A stretch of 64,000 nt of DNA. Origin: Sycon ciliatum. Taxonomy: Eukaryota; Porifera; Calcarea; Leucosolenida; Sycettidae. The stretch is from NCBI RefSeq assembly GCF_964019385.1, contig NC_088649.1, positions 6,033,035 to 6,097,034 on the forward strand, read 5' to 3'. The number at the start of each line of letters is the position of its first letter. The first letter of the stretch is position 1. Under the pieces are notes generated by a model that searched no databases, was not told the origin of the DNA, and saw nothing but the letters and a program-made list of their open reading frames with translations. Shown here piece after piece: positions 1,030-61,560 of this stretch. A program made the position numbers and the translations under genes.

Positions 1030-4000
1030 CTTGGTCCGCGTCAGCGATGTTGTCGCTTATCTTTCAGCTTTGTTTATATGTCGCAAATGCTTACTTGGCA
1101 GCCCATTTCATCCCAATTTTGGTTGGCAAGTTAGTTTGCTAGTACCTGAAAGGTCTAGCTAGAGTTCGAGTGGATTTCGAGAGCGACAGGTGGGTGATTC
1201 TGATTGATACAGCGCCGCATCAAAATAGATTATCTTGTTACGCTGGTGCAGGCAAGAGCAGCGCAAGCCAAAAGAAAGTAATCGACTACTCGGAATCAGC
1301 TCCATTTTGCTGAACGGCCGAGATCGCTCACCTCAGGGATCGCTCATCAATCTGAGATCGCAGCTCCCTTACCTCCAGCTCCTCGCTCGGAGTATCCAGC
1401 GCGTCGTGGAGATTTGCAAGTACATGTACTGTACGTGTTGTCGTCGTCGTTCAAAATATGAGCCGGCGCAAGCGAAAAGGGACCTTATCCTGCTGCACGT
1501 GATTTTGAGAAAACCGCACTTGAAGTGAATCAGCTGATTCTCAGCTGTCACGTTCGGATCGAACTTGAAACTGTTCGTTTTTTGGCGATACGCGACTTCT
1601 TTGGAGCTCAGTCATTCTTTCTATTGGAGAGCCAGTATCCTACAGCTCCTGTAGAAGAAAACCCTGGCTAAATCGACCCACGTACCACCGATCGGCGATC
1701 AAAATCGATCGACCGTGACACGTCGACACCTACGCTGAATAGAATCGCACGCGCAAGCGGAAAGACAAAAAGTTGCTTTCACAGTTTCAGCGCAGTTGTC
1801 TTGCCGTCTTCGCTTTCTGCTAAGTCCTTGGGTCGGCGTAGCTCTTCACTATGAGCCATCGTAAATGTTTCACTGTGAACGAAGCGCTGAAATCTCTCCT
1901 GGAAGAGGATGAGGCTGAAGTTTTTGGTGAGGAAGACGAGTCGGACGCCAGTGATGTTTCGGTTCAATCTGACGACGGCGACGATGATGGCGATGACGAT
2001 GATGATGGTGAACACTTTCTTGAGCAGCGAGTGGATGTCGATGCAGCAGCAGAGCTGTATGTCGGAAAGGCAGAGCCCAAACCTCCGCAGGCTAGCTCCG
2101 CAGCAGCTTGTGCAGCGACCGTTGCGCCGCCAGAGGAGGATGACACTGTTCGTCAAAAAGAGAACTGCGGATGTTCAAAAAATTGCTTGCAGCAATTTGA
2201 CCCAGCTGACATCGAGACGTCGATCCTCAACATGAGAGAAATGGAGTCGCACGAGAGTGAGCTGGTGGTCCTGGGCCTTCTTGAAGCTTTGAGTCATCCT
2301 GAAACAGTTTTTAAGAGTGGAGAGAAGCGCAAGAGGGAGCGTTTTACCTACAAATTCCAAGGACTAACTGTTTGTGTGGGTGCGTTCCGTCACGTGTACG
2401 CACTGTCTAGCAAGAGGCTGAAACGGTACAGAAGCCACCTGGAGAAGAATGGGCTTGTGCCACTAGTGCACGGCAACACAGGCAAACGGCCACACAATGC
2501 CCTGGAGTTTGCTGTTGTGAAGTACTGCGTGGAATACATCACTGGGCACGCGGAAGTGTTTGGAATTCCACATCCTGCGCCGCTCCGTGGCAGAGACGAC
2601 ACGCCACCTATCTTCCTTCCAGCGTCGCAAACGTACAAGTCCGTGCATGGAGACTTCTGCGACTGCTGCCACAAGGAGGGTAAGAAGTCTGTATCCTTGT
2701 CGACGTTCCGCTCAATCTGGCACCAGACATTACCGCATATTAAGTTCATGACGGCTCGCATGGATGTTTGCCCTGTGTGCGAGGACTTGCGGCGCAACGT
2801 GATGGCGGCTGGGAGTGAGGAGCAGAAGACGACCGCATGCACTCAGCTGACTGACCATGTTCATAGGGCCCAGAGGGAGAGAGAAAGCTACCGGCAGAGA
2901 ACCACAGATGCTGCCGCTGAGCTTCAGCAAGTTTCAGCCATGTCTCCTGCTGATCGCCCGCCGTTAACAAAGTCCCACTACACGTTTGACTTTGCTCAGA
3001 TCGTCAGCTTGCCGTATACGGCCAGACAGGACCACTTTACTTCAAAGTGCCTCGGAAAGTCCACTTGTTTGGTGTATGTAATGAAGGCGTTGGCCAACAG
3101 GTGAACTACATTATTGACGAGGCAGAAACCATCGGTCCTGACGGCAAGAAGAGCCACAATCCGAACACTGTAATTTCTTTGTTGCACGACTATTTTTCCA
3201 CTTCTGTTGCTGATGAGTATGACTGCTACGTACATGCAGATAATTGCGCAGGACAAAACAAAAACAAGTCTGTTATAGCTTACCTTGCATGGCGTTGCAT
3301 TGTCAATTTGCACAGAAGTATAACATTGTCGTTTATGATAACCGGCCATACCAGATGCCTAGTCGACGGTATGTTTGGCTTGGTTAAGAGGAAATACCGT
3401 CGCTCTGACGTGTTCAGCATGCAGCAGTTAGCAGATGTGGTTGACTCCAGCGCTACCTCCAACATCCATCGACGGATCCCTGGCAATGTGACCTGGTTTG
3501 AGTGGGATACGTACCTCGCCCGGCTCTTCAAAAAAGTCCCCAACATCAGCCAGCAGCATCATTTCCGGTTCTCATCCGACGAACCTGGAGCAGTGGCAGT
3601 GATGGAGCTTGTGGATGGGATGGAAACCAAGGTGCAGCTGTTGAAGACCACACCTGAGCAGGTGAGGGCAGCAGGCCTTCCCCAAGTGTTGCCCCCAGCA
3701 GGTCTGTCACAAGAACGCCAGAAGTACCTGTTCAAGGATATCCGCCCGTTTGTGGCAGACCCTTACAAGGATGAGCTGTGTCCGCCTGTGCCGGAGGAAT
3801 GACAAACTTGCGTAGTGCAACACACGTTTTGAGCCTGATAATTGCTACAGTCTGGTGCTGTGTCAAAGCTACATGCCTCGGAACATTCTATTATTCTTGT
3901 ATCTAAAATGCGGCGTGCCTGCGTGGTACGGAAGGACGTGATGGCCCATCAGACGTCACGTTTGGCACTATAAATTCCATCACAGTGAAACTTATGCCAA

Positions 4001-4870: not shown

Positions 4871-29081
<24,211 letters not shown>

Positions 29082-38609: not shown

Positions 38610-38950
38610 TGTTGTAAACCACCAGTTCTCAATTGGGAAAGGCCTTCGCGCTTATGGAATTGTATTCGTTGAAATGTTGTATTTCGACTCCGCCGTACCG
38701 CTGATATTGCTGCATGGCATACGCTATATGCGTTGTGTGCGTTTTTGCTGTATACGCTGTTATGTCCAGTTTTATCTGCTTATGTTCTGCGTGTACGCTG
38801 TTTTTGCATGCTATAAATAGCTGGTGTTATTAGTGTTCATTGTTAATTATCAGATGAAGTGAAATATACTGTGTAAAGGAAAAGAGTTGTCCTCGTGCCG
38901 TGTGGTCGTACGATCCTGACAATTTAGAGAATCTTGCAGGGTTCACAACA
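38610..38950 (+). repeat. 5' LTR
   Basis: 341 bp, shorter than the 3' LTR through internal indels. TATAAATAG at about 38811 may be the promoter TATA box. Confidence 0.9.
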
Positions 38951-38981
38951 TTTGGCGACCACGCCAGGATACGAAGCGAGC

Positions 38982-39962
38982 ATGGCACAGGAACTATGGA
39001 TCATCGAAGCCAGCTTTATCGCCAACGGAATTCGGTATGGATTTGAAGGCGATAGGTTGAGAGAATACGTGGAGAAGAGGCTCCGACAGAGCGAGGAGTT
39101 TGAAGAGCGCAGTGCTAGAAGGCAAGAGTGTGCGCTCCGCACAGAGTTTAACGAAAAGCTCAAGAAGATGGCCGAGCGCATCGCCGTCGGTACATATTAT
39201 GAGGAAGCAAAGCGAGATTTGCTTGCCTCGCCCGGAAGGACGCCGGACAAGGCGTGTAAGACTTTGCTTACAGACAAGCAGCGGTCAGAAGAGTATTCGA
39301 AGCCAGTGGGAGGATCAGATCCAAGGCCCACTGGGTCGGTGCAGTGCATGGTGACATCGGTCGGAGACGCTCAGAAGCAGCTGGAGTCTCGGCCGAACGA
39401 CGTAGAGGCGCAAGAGGCGCAAGAGTTAGAGGCGCAAGAGTTAGAGGCGCAAGAGTTAGAGGCGCAAGAATTGGAGGCGCAAGAATTGGAGGCGCAAGAG
39501 TTAGAGGCGCAAGAGTTAGAGGCGCAAGAGATAGAGGCGCAAGAGTTAGAGGCGCAAGAGTTAGAGGCGCAAGACATAAAAGCGCAAGGCGTAGAAGATA
39601 AGAAAATGAGAAGGGCGATACTACTGGTTAGCACGGAAGAAGTAAGCGGCGAGACTGTGTGGATCACAGAGATCCGATGTGTGTCCTCGGATTCCGCGCC
39701 CGCCGCGGGTCGAAGCAGTGTACCGGTGACCATGTCGTGTGTGACAGCCCACATCGTCGAGCTTTATGACATTATCGGTTGTGTGTTGTCTGGTCCAGCG
39801 TCTGCCCCATGTCGAAGTGGATCGGTAACAGTGTCGTGTGCGACAGCCCACAGCGGTAAGCTTCGCGATGTCGAGTTTTCTGAATTGGTGGGCATTAGTG
39901 ATATTCTACCATGGCCACCACCGCAGCAGCAGATGACGCGTAGTAAGCCCCAAATCGTTTGA
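38982..39962 (+). CDS. Truncated gag-like protein with EAQEL repeats
   Basis: The likely start is the ATG at about 38982 after the primer-binding site (MAQELWIIEAS...). The N-terminal ~80 residues (YGFEGDRLREYVEKRLRQSEE, then charged helices) resemble the leader segment of Gypsy-type gag proteins in invertebrates. The middle is a tandem (EAQEL)n block encoded by a 15-bp repeat at 39405-39590. The tail is Ser/Val-rich with two related VTMSCVTAH / VTVSCATAH segments, so part was duplicated. No zinc knuckle, protease or polymerase. It probably supplies nothing but packaging or RNA-binding functions, if it is active at all. Confidence 0.6.
   Translation: MAQELWIIEASFIANGIRYGFEGDRLREYVEKRLRQSEEFEERSARRQECALRTEFNEKLKKMAERIAVGTYYEEAKRDLLASPGRTPDKACKTLLTDKQRSEEYSKPVGGSDPRPTGSVQCMVTSVGDAQKQLESRPNDVEAQEAQELEAQELEAQELEAQELEAQELEAQELEAQELEAQEIEAQELEAQELEAQDIKAQGVEDKKMRRAILLVSTEEVSGETVWITEIRCVSSDSAPAAGRSSVPVTMSCVTAHIVELYDIIGCVLSGPASAPCRSGSVTVSCATAHSGKLRDVEFSELVGISDILPWPPPQQQMTRSKPQIV
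39405..39590. repeat. 15-bp coding minisatellite (EAQEL)n
   Basis: Unit GAGGCGCAAGAGTTA with A/G variants, about 12 copies, in frame within the gag-like ORF. Confidence 0.95.
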
Positions 39963-40426: not shown

Positions 40427-41803
40427 CTACAACGTGTAGGGAATGGCAGCTCGGCGGAATGCTGGGATGTTGCCCATGGCTCGCACCGTGTCAGGTATAC
40501 GGTTCCATAACAGGCAACCGCGAGATGCCGGCCGGCATTGGCCTGCTCGGCTTCTGGCTATTGGTTGCTGTAGGCCCAGACTGCGCTGAAGGCGAGTTGC
40601 TCCGCAGTTGCGAACAAACAGTGCCTGCAGAGCAGGGCTGGCACGGTTATGAACGCACCGCCGTACCAGCACGAGCAGTTTCTGGCGATATACCTCGTCC
40701 ACGCGATAACCAGAGAGCCAGAGGTTACTGGCCCTGGTAAATCGTGGTCGTCCAAACACCGCCCTTGCTGTGCGGTTTGGGGCCACCTGCAAGCGGTTTA
40801 GCTGGTTGTGGGTCAAGCCGGAGCCATATGCTGACGATCCATATATCAAATCCGGCATGATGACAGATAGAAAGTACCTGCTTCGACAAGCTAGAGTGAG
40901 GCAGCGTCGCGCCCGCCACAGACTACCGATCTTCCTAGCAGTGCGTGAGATGCACTGGTCAACTTGCGGTTGCCAGGCCATTCGTTCATCGATCAAGACG
41001 CCGAGGTATTTCGCGCTGGTGGTGTGCGGAAGGACATCATTTCGACAGCGTACAACCACGTCCGGCTGCTGCCCACGGCTGCTGGTAAAAACCAATACAT
41101 TGCTCTTCTTTGCATTTAATCCAAGACCACGAGCGTCCAGCCAACTTGAGAGGGAGGTAACCGCCAAGCTGAGCGCATCAGACACCTCTTGCGCTGGCCG
41201 TCTTGCACATGTCAGGGCGATGTCATCCGCAAACTGCAGTGATGATGCCGGCGCAGATTCAGAGGGGACATCTCTGGTGTATAATTATGGAGAACAGCAT
41301 GGGTCCTAGTACAGAGCCCTGCGGCACACCACAAATGCACGGTACAGTTCTGCCCAGTCGGGAGCCCATACGAACGCGTTGATGGCGCCCAGACAGATAG
41401 TCCCGAAGCCATTTCAGGGCTGTGCCGGAGATACCGATGCTGAACAAGTCCTGGACGAAGGTGGCATGCTTCACCTTGTCAAAGGCTTTACTCATATCTA
41501 ACAGGCATGTTGCTACAACAGAACCATTGTCTCGGGCTTGGAGGACGGTGTCCGAGAGCAGTGCCAGCACATCTTCGGTCGAGTGTCCCGGGCGGAATGC
41601 AAACTGGGTGTTAGGGAGAGCTGGGTCGACGAAGTCAACCAGGGCTTTCTGCACCAGCTTTTCGAGTAGCTTAGAGATCACGGGTAACAGCGACACAGGG
41701 CGGTAGTTTGTGGGCACGGATGGGTCTCCGGCCTTGAACAGGGGTGTGACGTGGGCTAGCTTGAAACCTCTTGGCACTTCTCCGCTGGACAGGGACGCAT
41801 TAA
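40427..41803 (-). pseudogene. LINE reverse transcriptase, palm/thumb and C-terminus
   Basis: The minus strand encodes FNASLSSGEVPRGFKLAHVTPLFKAGD, NYRPVSLLPVISKLLEK, motif A (LLDMSKAFDKVKH), motif B (CGVPQGSVLGPMLF), motif C (FADDIALT) and a C-terminal tail ending near 40427. A frameshift lies near 41280 between motifs B and C. This is the 3' part of an APE-type (CR1/Jockey-like) LINE whose 5' parts are at 45048-45644 and 57788-58741, displaced by insertions. Reverse transcription at nicked target DNA is the family role; this copy is dead. Confidence 0.85.
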
Positions 41804-42319
41804 AGGGGCACTCCGGCTTCATTTTCGACGCCGCGTTTTCGATGCCAAGACGAAGGTAGGTGAAAGAGAAGACTCCTCGAACAAGAACGAGTCTCCAGAA
41901 GCGATCGAGTCGAGCAGGAAGACGACTTTTGAATTTCGCCGAGCGAGCGCTGATGACGTAATGAGGGATTAGCTTGCCAGTGGAAATGCATCTGCGCACA
42001 TACATTTCACATACTTTTTGGCCAATTTTCAATCGAAGAGGAGGTTGTTTTCCATGTTCTCTCAACGTCGTGAGCGATCCCGTCTTCTATACCCTTCCAG
42101 GTACCCTCAAGGTCCTCCAGAGGAGAATTTATCTCCAGCGAAGCGTTGTTGATCCGCTAAATTCGTCTCGAGACATATTCACCCAGTACAGTGCTGATAA
42201 ATGTAGAATGTTGAATCTGTGATAATTGTTGACGATGGAGAGAGAGGCTGATAGCCGCTGTCGCAGGGAGAGTGAAGCTGCTGGAAGTAACAACGGGGAG
42301 CCCGTTTGTATCACCTGAA

Positions 42320-45644: not shown

Positions 45645-46019
45645 GCGAAAGGCTAAAGGGACAAGCTTATCTATTTTTGCGGATTTTCCATCATAAAAAA
45701 ATAAACGTCACAGCCAAGCCTTCGTACGTGGCCGCGTCGCGCGACCGCGATACCGATCGGAAGCTCCGGGACACTTGGCCGTGGCCATTGCAGGGTTGGA
45801 CAGATGACGGATGCATTTCAGCTTGCAGTCTCGTCGCGTACACGTACATACATACATTGTACAACAATACACATTATTTTATGACCTGAAACTTGAAAGG
45901 TCATTGCGGCGGGAAGGGAAGAATACCGGTAGTGACAGACGACGTTTTGGTTTTTTGGTTTGGTTTTTTAGATGGACACGTTTTGGTTTTGGTTTTTGTC
46001 CTGATCATGATCCGATATG

Positions 46020-49000
46020 ATGGCAAACGAGGTTAGAGTATTAGATGGAGCGGAGGAATTGGAGGATTTCCTGAAAGTTGCCCTACCACGCGCTAGCTTT
46101 GTAACGAGGACCACAGAAAAACCGTTCTCAAACAGGTAAAAATGAATTTGAAGACACCACTGCAGCTGTACTTATGGTTGATAAATATGGTGGCACGGTA
46201 AAGACACACCTGGCAAGATGGCGGTAAACACACGCCTGCCCACACACGCTCTCTAGGCTGCAAAGTTCTGGCACAGAGCTCTCCTTCTCACCACCACCAC
46301 CATCAGTTCGCGCCTGGCGCCTGGTCGATGCATGGTTGGCGGTATCCGGCATAGCAGGCTGGTACATCAAGTAGTGCATGGCACATAGCAAATGACACAG
46401 CAACGACATAGCTCGATTGCGACGTACGTTTCGTCCCCGCTGGACTCATCAGGCAATCTTCTTCTTGGATGTCTTCACACGGAGCTTGACTCGGGAGAAT
46501 GAATTTGAAGACACCACTGCAGCTGTACTTATGGTTGATAAATATGGTGGCACGGTAAAGGTACGTCGCAATCGAGCTATGTCGTTGCTGTGTCATCTGC
46601 TATGTGCCATGCACTACTTGATGTACCAGCCTGCTATGCCGGATACCGCCAACCATGCATCGACCAGGCGCCAGGCGCGAACTGATGGTGGTGGTGGTGA
46701 GAAGGAGAGCTCTGTGCCAGAACTTTGCAGCCTAGAGAGCGTGTGTGGGCAGGCGTGTGTTTACCGCCATCTTGCCAGGTGTGTCTTTACCGTGCCACCA
46801 TATTTATCAACCATAAGTACAGCTGCAGTGGTGTCTTCAAATTCATTCTCCCGAGTCAAGCTCCGTGTGAAGACATCCAAGAAGAAGATTGCCTGATGAG
46901 TCCAGCGGGGACGAAACGTAGACCCGGGTGCTCGAATCAGAAACGATTTGACAGGTGTGCAATTTCTCATCTGTAAATCTCAACAATGTCAGAATATACT
47001 TTTGGAGAGGCGATGGAACAGGGAAGAGAGTCTGGCTTGACCCACCCAGCAGGAATTCAGAACCTGGGTGCGCTACAACACAGCCTACAGTACGCAGTAA
47101 AATTGTCGTATTTCCTTCGGATTTTTTATTTGAAAATTGGGTGCTCGAATCAGAAACAGCGAACTCGTCAGATCGTCTCCGATTCAAGCACACAGGTCTA
47201 CCATCGTCTACGCTTGTTATGGCAGTTGAGGGCAGGGAGTAGTAACTTACTACTTCGTTTTTGAGAGCAAGATGGTCAGCGGAGCCGCAGATTCAGCAGT
47301 TCTTTGGCAGCACCGTACCGTAGACCCACATCCTCGAATCAAGGACCCAACAAAAAGTGGGTCGCGAGTATTTCAAAAACCGTTTACGGGCAGAGCTGAA
47401 ATTTGGCATACCGTTAGCGGGCCGTATGTTGATGGTATTTGTGAAAACTAAACGAAATCGGAATAAGTTTAGGTACAATTTCAAGCTGTTTCTGTTTTGG
47501 CACCCTGTGTCTCATTCGAGCACCCGGGTCTACGTCGCAATCGAGCTATGTCGTTGCTGTGTCATCTGCTATGTGCCATGCACTACTTGATGTACCAGCC
47601 TGCTATGCCGGATACCGCCAACCATGCATCGACCAGGCGCCAGGCGCGAACTGATGGTGGTGGTGGTGAGAAGGAGAGCTCTGTGCCAGAACTTTGCAGC
47701 CTAGAGAGCGTGTGTGGGCAGGCGTGTGTTTACCGCCATCTTGCCAGGTGTGTCTTTACCGTGCCACCATATTTATCAACCATAAGTACAGCTGCAGTGG
47801 TGTCTTCAAATTCATTCTCCCGAGTCAAGCTCCGTGTGAAGACATCCAAGAAGAAGATTGCCTGATGAGTCCAGCGGGGACGAAACGTACGTCGCAATCG
47901 AGCTATGTCGTTGCTGTGTCATCTGCTATGTGCCATGCACTACTTGATGTACCAGCCTGCTATGCCGGATACCGCCAACCATGCATCGACCAGGCGCCAG
48001 GCGCGAACTGATGGTGGTGGTGGTGAGAAGGAGAGCTCTGTGCCAGAACTTTGCAGCCTAGAGAGCGTGTGTGGGCAGGCGTGTGTTTACCGCCATCTTG
48101 CCAGGTGTGTCTTTACCGTGCCACCATATTTATCAAACAGGTAAGACCCACCAAAACGGAGCACGAAAATGCTGTCTTCATCGTGTTTATGTTGGTTCCA
48201 AAGGAGCAGTGAGTCGTATAATTCATAGGTTTTGAAGAGAAGAATATGCAGTGTGCATTGCCCTACAGTAGTGCACAGTGCATTACAGCCCTGCTAGCGG
48301 ATACACGTAAATGCATTCACACTTGCATAGAGCGGGACGATTATAAATTAGTTTTGATATCCACTGCACCCATCCCACATACTGTAGTGTCGCGTATAAA
48401 AGGCATGACCTGTATAGAAGCATGACTCGAATAGAAGCCGATTTTTTGAAGCCCGCTGTAACACAGTTGGTTTGAATAGAAGCCGCTCCCTGTAAAGTAC
48501 ATGTGCGAGTACATGCGTGGCAGTATCCACTGCACAGTGCAGAATGATGTTGACGTAGAAGCATATTTCGAATAGAAGCATAACTTGAATAGAAGCATGG
48601 TTTGGACCCCGGTTTGCTGTTATACGCGACATTACGGTATTAGAAACATTGGAACGAAGTATGGCAAGGATGCATCAAAAAAATTGATGGTCATGCTGTC
48701 TGTTAGTTCGTTGAGCAGGGTACGAAACCTTACACCCAGGGTGCTGAATCATGTTTTGGGAATTAGGCTCTAATTTGATTCCCTGTTGAGCAAGAATACC
48801 TCACATCCACTGTATTCCAACACATAACTAACCATTTTCCAACGCATATCTTTGCAGTGTACATAGCGTCGTCACTGGATTAACAGTAATGACTGCTGGT
48901 ATAATTATAACGTCTCGTACATGTATGTGTGCTATGTCCACAAATGTTGCAGTGTTGAAGAGATCTTCAAGGAGGCCATTCTGCGTCCAAAGGGGTTCAT

Positions 49001-60510: not shown

Positions 60511-61560
60511 TCAATTGAATGCCATATGAAATTTATGGGTAGGCTGCCCCCTTAAGGAATGCTGCACATGCTGAGGGGCAGCGATAAGTTTGATTTTGTG
60601 AATGTATACGCAGGAGGATCGGTCAATGTAATGTTTCAGAGGAAATGTACAGCAATTTTCATAGAGAACGGCTATGTTGGTCTCGGGCGGCAAACGAAGT
60701 ATTGCCCGGAGAATCCGTCGATGCACAATCTCCAGTTTTGCAAAGAGGCCATTACCAGCGCCACACCACACCACACAGCAATACAAGAAAATAGGCAAAA
60801 CGTATGTATGATAAAAGGTCTTTCGGCATTCTGGTGAAATGTAGGGGAGATGGTCATAAAGAATACCGACGACTGAGTTTGCCCGCTTTTCCAGATTCTG
60901 GAAATGGTGGGACCAGTCCAATTTGCTATCAAGTGTAACGCCAAGGTGCTTGTGACGAGAGGTTATAGGTATCGGGGTAGGATCATCGGGGAAATGGAAA
61001 ATAAAAGTTTGAAGATGTGCAACATCTGATGACGCGTTGGGGACGACACACATGATCTCGGTCTTGGCGGAGTCCGGCCGGAGTTTCCACCTTCGCATCC
61101 ACTTGACCACACAGTCTACTCCTCACCTGCAGGTCTTGACACGCGACGGGTAGCGACCGGTGACTAGCCAGCAGAGTGATGTCGTAAGCATATAGCGAGG
61201 TGTTGAGAATTGCACCGATATCATTCACATACATTAGAAAAAGCAGGGGCCCCAGAATTGATCCCTGAGGGACACCAGAACACACGCGTTCAGGGTGGGA
61301 CAATTGACCCGAGATATTTACTTGCTGTGAGCGACCACACAGGTAACTCTCCAGCCACCGCAGTATGCGTCCTTGAATCGAGAATGATGCTATCTTAGCC
61401 ATCAGCCCACGGTGCCACACAGTATCAAAGGCTTTAGATAAATCGAAGAAGCAGACTAGGCTGTACTCGCTACGATGGCGATTGTCATGCAGGGATTGAA
61501 CAACTCGAAGTAGCTGCCAGGCTGTTGAATCATCTCGACGGAATCCGGACTGTGATTAAT
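60511..61560 (-). pseudogene. Second LINE reverse transcriptase, catalytic Asp mutated
   Basis: Minus strand from 61560: SGFRRDDSTAWQLLRVVQ, motif A FFDLSKAFDTVWH, RILRWLESYLCGR, motif B SGVPQGSILGPLLF, motif C YAYDITLLA, then after a frameshift near 61100, KWMRRWKLRPDSAKTEIM, HLGVTLDSKLDWSHH and a thumb/C-terminal part to 60511. Motif C should be Y/F-ADD; here the first Asp is Tyr (one-base GAC to TAC change). 5'-truncated and dead. A different family from the LINE at 40-58 kb. Confidence 0.85.

Follow-up and report, generated by a model that had tools for sequence, protein, structure and literature searches.

The locus at 46128-48144 of the window (the whole 64-kb stretch of DNA analysed here) raises the question of what kind of element left hammerhead-bearing tandem units at this position, and of how that element moved. 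The first-pass annotation had described a tandem of two full 357-nt monomers, the first counted without its nested insert, plus a truncated third, and we confirmed these as exact copies at 46568-46920 (completed by its last 4 nt at 47533-47536, beyond the insert), 47537-47893 and 47894-48136. The repeat that had been placed on both flanks was also confirmed, as the 12-nt direct repeat TCAAACAGGTAA; its last 11 nt, CAAACAGGTAA, are found at 46129-46139 and 48134-48144, and the twelfth is the preceding T. The features of the locus are listed in Table 1.

Anatomy of the insertion and its surroundings

The whole insertion is a single element bounded by the two copies of TCAAACAGGTAA. Since the TCAA at the right end is monomer sequence too, the target duplication is effectively 8-12 nt. 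The tandem on the plus strand is real, but a minus-strand copy containing a complete hammerhead had been overlooked in the earlier description. This inverted copy runs backwards from monomer nt 280 to nt 1 and continues into the next unit from nt 357 to nt 218, a single extra A (46140) lies between it and the left duplication, and it is arranged head-to-head with the plus block, the orientation switching at 46560/46561. The plus-strand units add up to 964 nt (7 + 357 + 357 + 243) and show no mismatch over 46561-48136 when the insert is left out. Together with the 420 inverted nucleotides there are 1384 element bases, and only 1 of them differs across all units, as expected from one template. 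The right-hand duplication adjoins nt 239-243 of the monomer and the left-hand one nt 280; both sites are internal, and neither is the cleavage site.

Table 1. Features identified in and around the insertion (mono, monomer numbering).
Feature	Position	Strand	Remarks
Left target duplication, TCAAACAGGTAA	46128-46139		
Inverted copy, 420 nt	46141-46560	minus	1 mismatch to the plus monomer
Complete type I hammerhead	46415-46458	minus	RF00163, 35.4 bits; predicted cut between 46421 and 46420
Start of plus block	46561-46920	plus	7 nt upstream of the cleavage site, then mono 1-353 (46568-46920); 0 mismatches
Hammerhead interrupted by the nested insert	46887-47542	plus	Minimum-energy fold of 46885-47545
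Nested insert, 610 nt	46921-47530		17-nt perfect terminal inverted repeats; in hammerhead stem III
Complete 357-nt monomer	47537-47893	plus	Cleavage site to cleavage site
Predicted hairpin UAUUUAU-CAACC-AUAAGUA (mono 234-252), end site 1	47770-47788	plus	AC-rich loop at 47777-47781
Second predicted hairpin (mono 262-272 with 301-312)	47798-47848	plus	Minimum-energy folds
Complete type I hammerhead	47856-47899	plus	RF00163, 35.4 bits; predicted cut between 47893 and 47894
Truncated unit, 243 nt (mono 1-243)	47894-48136	plus	Ends at site 1; 0 mismatches
Right target duplication, TCAAACAGGTAA	48133-48144		

When the monomer was compared by BLAST with the 64-kb window outside the insertion, the best E value was only 0.13. 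The GC content is 53% in the retrozyme-like unit and 47% in the window.

Several other features were observed elsewhere in the window. RVT_1 fragments above the Pfam cut-off are located at 41262-42086 and 60986-61555, both on the minus strand, with a weaker one below the cut-off at 40430-41284; by their appearance, these minus-strand reverse transcriptase fragments are decayed non-LTR elements. Two overlapping plus-strand ORFs occupy 1842-3802, and the second (2990-3799) carries DUF7869. Relatives of this DUF7869 ORF occur in sponges, molluscs and other animals, the best named match being from Sycon ciliatum (59% identity). It also matches a fragment labelled scpid (86% over 21% of the query), a label that we take to stand for Sycon. 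Since Sycon belongs to the calcareous sponges, the host is probably one of these or a relative. Additionally, a 17-nt motif with GAATAGAAGC forms short tandem arrays on both strands (25118-25154, 48393-48438 and 48556-48598), and in a 344-aa plus-strand ORF (38928-39962) a 15-nt repeat encodes EAQEL units.

Hammerhead motifs and the nested insert

A hammerhead had been reported at every junction of the tandem. The motif at the third boundary is complete, whereas the first boundary (46567/46568) retains the 3' part only and the second is split by the nested insert. Both complete motifs score just above the RF00163 gathering score of 34, with an E value of 3.7e-5 for the 64-kb window, and the two matches are therefore more than chance. 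The Rfam search over 45900-48400, taken up to E 5, returned no family besides RF00163, and the split hammerhead was absent from the matches.

The nested insert interrupts the palindrome ACGUACGU and is flanked by a duplicated TA (46919-46920 and 47531-47532). Judged by this TA target, it is presumably Tc1/mariner-like. Extra partial copies of its own terminal sequence were observed inside it, e.g. at 47139-47157. The minimum-energy fold of the interrupted region keeps stems I and II together with a long stem III; because the inverted ends of the insert and the flanking ACGUA/UACGU pair as stem III, the split ribozyme is predicted to retain its fold. The split copy thus represents a transposon inside stem III of a ribozyme, with the ribozyme fold kept by prediction.

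When the 44-nt plus motif was folded in isolation, the energy minimum was -10.5 kcal/mol, as compared to -7.7 kcal/mol for the imposed hammerhead pairing. A predicted minimum other than the hammerhead fits a weak stem III that holds the palindrome ACGUACGU. Hammerheads with a weak stem III are reported to act as dimers in axolotl (PMC7229834; this and the other papers cited by accession are represented here by excerpts), and by analogy the present motif might work better as a dimer.

Where the copies end

Relatives of the unit were sought among ORFs on ENA contigs, which possibly include other species, using the 105-aa monomer frame as the sense bait and an antisense bait as well. The sense bait was matched by 119 of 121 candidates and the antisense bait by 28 of 39, 25 of which were new, giving a total of 144 related ORFs on at least 100 distinct contigs. 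The hammerhead-bearing repeat is thus dispersed, probably in a sponge genome. Exact matches to a 41-nt ribozyme pattern numbered 0 in viral contigs and 0 in genome contigs, both of them collections that may omit records of this genome or of a very close one. The 105-aa frame, the longest that opens with an ATG, was dropped as a coding signal; its length was reached by 157 of 1000 shuffles, and being no longer than chance it gives no sign of coding. The only ORF of at least 150 aa in 46128-48144 lies across the inversion (46396-46896), and the Pfam search of ORFs of this length gave no match, so that no reverse transcriptase or GIY-YIG endonuclease ORF was found in the insertion. Reading through the cleavage junction, i.e. 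tandem units, was seen in 14 of the 144 related ORFs. Head-to-head switches of orientation (antisense to sense) were present in 15 of the 144, at varying break positions, and tail-to-tail switches in none.

In each sense-bait ORF, the copy was taken to end at the final residue that was still identical with the family. Among the 119 sense-bait ORFs, 8 lacked the stretch in question, 17 stopped within 3 residues past the end of the match and 5 changed frame or unit, and the remaining 89 were kept as informative. Their 3' ends are clustered: 58 fall at monomer nt 235-253 (site 1), 18 at nt 274-289 (site 2) and 13 elsewhere, namely at 226 (one ORF), 232-234 (five), 256 (two), and 290, 316, 343, 355 and 427 (one each). 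A uniform distribution of ends over nt 226-472 would place 12.6 in the two bins together, as compared to the 76 observed; the corresponding binomial P of 6e-51 is a guide only, since the copies share ancestry and the bins were drawn up in the light of a first tally. A looser tally of ends (117 of 119 rows) contained spurious alignments and was set aside. The positions of the end sites are exact to a few nucleotides only, as they were read from translated ORFs. The 76 tails that follow the clustered ends fell into 70 groups by shared 6-mers, which indicates mostly separate insertions.

Out of the 25 new antisense-bait ORFs, 15 begin at site 2 (near which the antisense bait itself starts, so that ORFs ending there may be favoured), 4 at site 1, 1 at nt 304 and 3 at nt 346-355, these last reading on towards or through the ribozyme; 2 were left unplaced by the script. 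By eye, one of the unplaced ORFs (P0259) resembles site 2 and the other (P0260) starts within the unit, and P0114, tabulated at nt 244, begins earlier. The 13 sense 5' boundaries are scattered and carry little weight, since in at least two of the ORFs (P0070 and P0117) a further piece of the unit lies ahead of the boundary.

The window's own insertion ends at the same two sites, which lie 37-41 nt apart, the outer end of the inverted copy being site 2. The first-pass annotation had looked to further copies with ribozyme-bounded ends; the copies mostly end at the two internal sites instead, and a mobile unit bounded by ribozyme sites was rejected on the basis of the end positions in both the window and the related ORFs. 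In the predicted fold of the circular monomer (a single sequence was folded), the seven pairs UAUUUAU/AUAAGUA form with probabilities of 0.88-0.98 and site 1 is at the loop CAACC. Site 2 (47810-47825) is within the unpaired loop of the second predicted hairpin. Folding of the monomer as a whole is weaker than that of shuffles (z +2.0; 98 of 100 shuffles were at least as stable).

Comparison with known retroelements and a proposed route of movement

In metazoan non-LTR retrozymes, units of 170-400 nt are arrayed in tandem, each bears a type I hammerhead, and no coding function has been found; they are further characterized by target duplications of more than 4 bp, a GC content under 45-50% and highly self-paired RNA (PMC7229834, Cervera and de la Pena 2020). 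Such elements also lack LTRs, primer binding sites and polypurine tracts, and are self-cleaving RNAs expressed in linear and circular form. The 357-nt unit of the window resembles them in its tandem arrangement, its type I hammerheads, the 8-12 nt duplication of the window copy and the missing sign of coding. It differs in its GC content of 53%, in a monomer no stabler than shuffles and in the inversion of half of the insertion. Fixed internal end sites, as present in this family, are unmentioned for metazoan retrozymes in the excerpts of PMC7229834. By unit size, ribozyme, duplication and missing coding, the label of metazoan retrozyme is reasonable; "retrozyme-like" is the safe name, because the traits of low GC and high self-pairing fail and circles would be an inferred stage. 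The earlier proposal of a new family moved as RNA holds in part: the dispersal, the flanking repeats and the missing coding sign support a family moved as RNA, but the kind itself is known, animal retrozymes in the range of 170-400 nt having already been published. Plant LTR retrozymes are also non-autonomous units delimited by hammerheads, and have a circular RNA intermediate, but they differ by type III hammerheads in LTRs, circles of 600-800 nt and 4-bp duplications (PMC4918200).

In its ends, the insertion resembles those of Penelope-like elements (PLEs), which have been named a strong candidate for moving animal retrozymes, without proof (PMC7229834). The PLE protein PAc cuts and extends both target strands, and reverse transcription starts inside its RNA at two adjacent sites, most commonly at an AC-rich stem loop; the stretch between the two start sites corresponds to the 30-40 bp tail of genomic copies, and insertion in vitro is independent of hammerhead cleavage (PMC11167929). 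Direct pLTRs and an inverted pLTR occur together in Penelope copies of A. vaga, whose duplications measure 8-10 bp; one inverted pLTR carries a 31-bp tail, and the inverted arrangements are most often head-to-head (PMC3846280). The insertion in the window likewise combines tandem and inverted copies, placed head-to-head, with a duplication of 8-12 nt, a type I hammerhead and, in the hairpin predicted at site 1, an AC-rich loop. The end sites are again two neighbouring ones, a tail of 30-40 nt being present or absent, and the inverted unit extends outwards by 37-41 nt more than the direct one. Unlike in PLEs, the unit measures only 357 nt and no reverse transcriptase or GIY-YIG ORF was found in the insertion; the element itself is not an autonomous PLE.

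The combination of two starts within the unit, a 30-40 nt tail that may or may not be present, an inverted unit on the 5' side and a short duplication agrees with published PLE insertions. We consider it probable that the element is a non-autonomous, retrozyme-like retroelement of about 0.35 kb per unit and that a PLE-type reverse transcriptase moved it. Such movement would begin with the transcription of tandem units, which the type I hammerheads would cut to monomers, perhaps closed to circles. The reverse transcriptase/endonuclease of a Penelope-like element would bind this RNA and cut both target strands. Synthesis of cDNA would then start inside the RNA at neighbouring loops, at site 1 (monomer nt ~241) or site 2 (~280), the positions at which copies are seen to end, and would proceed round a circle or along a multimer to yield the identical tandem units observed. 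With extension possible on both target strands, a pair of cDNAs could finally meet by their 5'-truncated ends, which would make many insertions head-to-head, with site 1 or site 2 outermost and a short duplication; head-to-head order is what the window and 15 of the 144 related ORFs show. The near-identity of the units is compatible with either a circle or a homogeneous multimer; since PAc insertion in vitro does not depend on hammerhead cleavage, an uncut multimer may have served as the template in place of a circle.

Some observations count against a PLE-type enzyme. Thirteen of the 89 ends lie outside both bins. The right end in the window shares TCAA with the target, but the PAc start site has no homology to the DNA that is cut; PAc also prefers AT-rich ATT targets, a preference that the window's target may not share. 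On the same side stand the weak folding of the monomer, the Pfam search without a match, the limited precision of the end positions and the start of the antisense bait near site 2. Self-priming on an antisense template, which is another route, is favoured for head-to-head PLE copies in PMC3846280, and the 15-bp duplications of Nematostella hammerhead repeats have been compared to those of LINEs (PMC4918200).

In one alternative, a LINE-type reverse transcriptase moves the retrozyme-like RNA, the hairpin being read as a 3' tail and the inversions arising by twin priming. LINE-type reverse transcriptase fragments are present in the window, as the two RVT_1 matches above the cut-off, and twin priming does yield 5' inversions flanked by duplications (PMC2837659); the LINE-like duplications of the Nematostella repeats also fit this alternative. 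Twin priming alone, on the other hand, predicts neither an inverted part whose outer end is at site 2, where direct copies end too, nor two starts 37-41 nt apart, and downstream of the insertion's right end there is neither poly(A) nor a simple repeat. We regard this alternative as unlikely.

Rather improbable, in our judgement, is that, instead of an independent retrozyme, the units are an array of solo pseudo-LTRs (pLTRs), either remnants or derivatives of an autonomous Penelope-like element. PLE pLTRs do bear hammerheads, tails and inverted pLTRs (PMC11167929, PMC3846280). A 48-aa frame (47865-48011) also opens at the hammerhead ATG (47865), 29 nt upstream of the cut site, much as the PAc ORF opens in stem II, 26 bp before the cut (PMC11167929). 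This frame stops after the residues APGAN, the same final residues being found in at least 7 related ORFs, and so does not run into the tail, unlike in the A. vaga pLTRs (PMC3846280). The 14 related ORFs that read through the cleavage junction in tandem argue in the same direction. The related-protein searches took lengths up to ~184 aa, and a longer PLE ORF joined to the unit would lie outside their reach. Finally, a satellite or local duplication with incidental hammerheads and no retrotransposition would suit the near-identical tandem units, but is very hard to reconcile with the flanking direct repeat, the common internal end sites and the spread of the 144 ORFs over at least 100 contigs.

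Movement by a PLE-type reverse transcriptase can be put in a more specific form: animal retrozymes of this kind may carry a compact module of two adjoining hairpins that copies the reverse transcription start and tail signal of PLEs, and a PLE enzyme that works on the two strands of the target would prime on circular or multimeric ribozyme RNA to give the head-to-head insertion. We consider this proposal about as likely as not. Searches of openly licensed PMC papers turned up no animal retrozyme described with PLE-type ends. The mover of animal retrozymes was left open by their discoverers (PMC7229834), and the PLE-like ends described here bear on that question and allow a direct test in which purified PLE protein is combined with the 357-nt RNA. 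If the proposal is true, the two groups of hammerhead-bearing animal retroelements would be linked as parasite (the retrozyme) and helper (the PLE).
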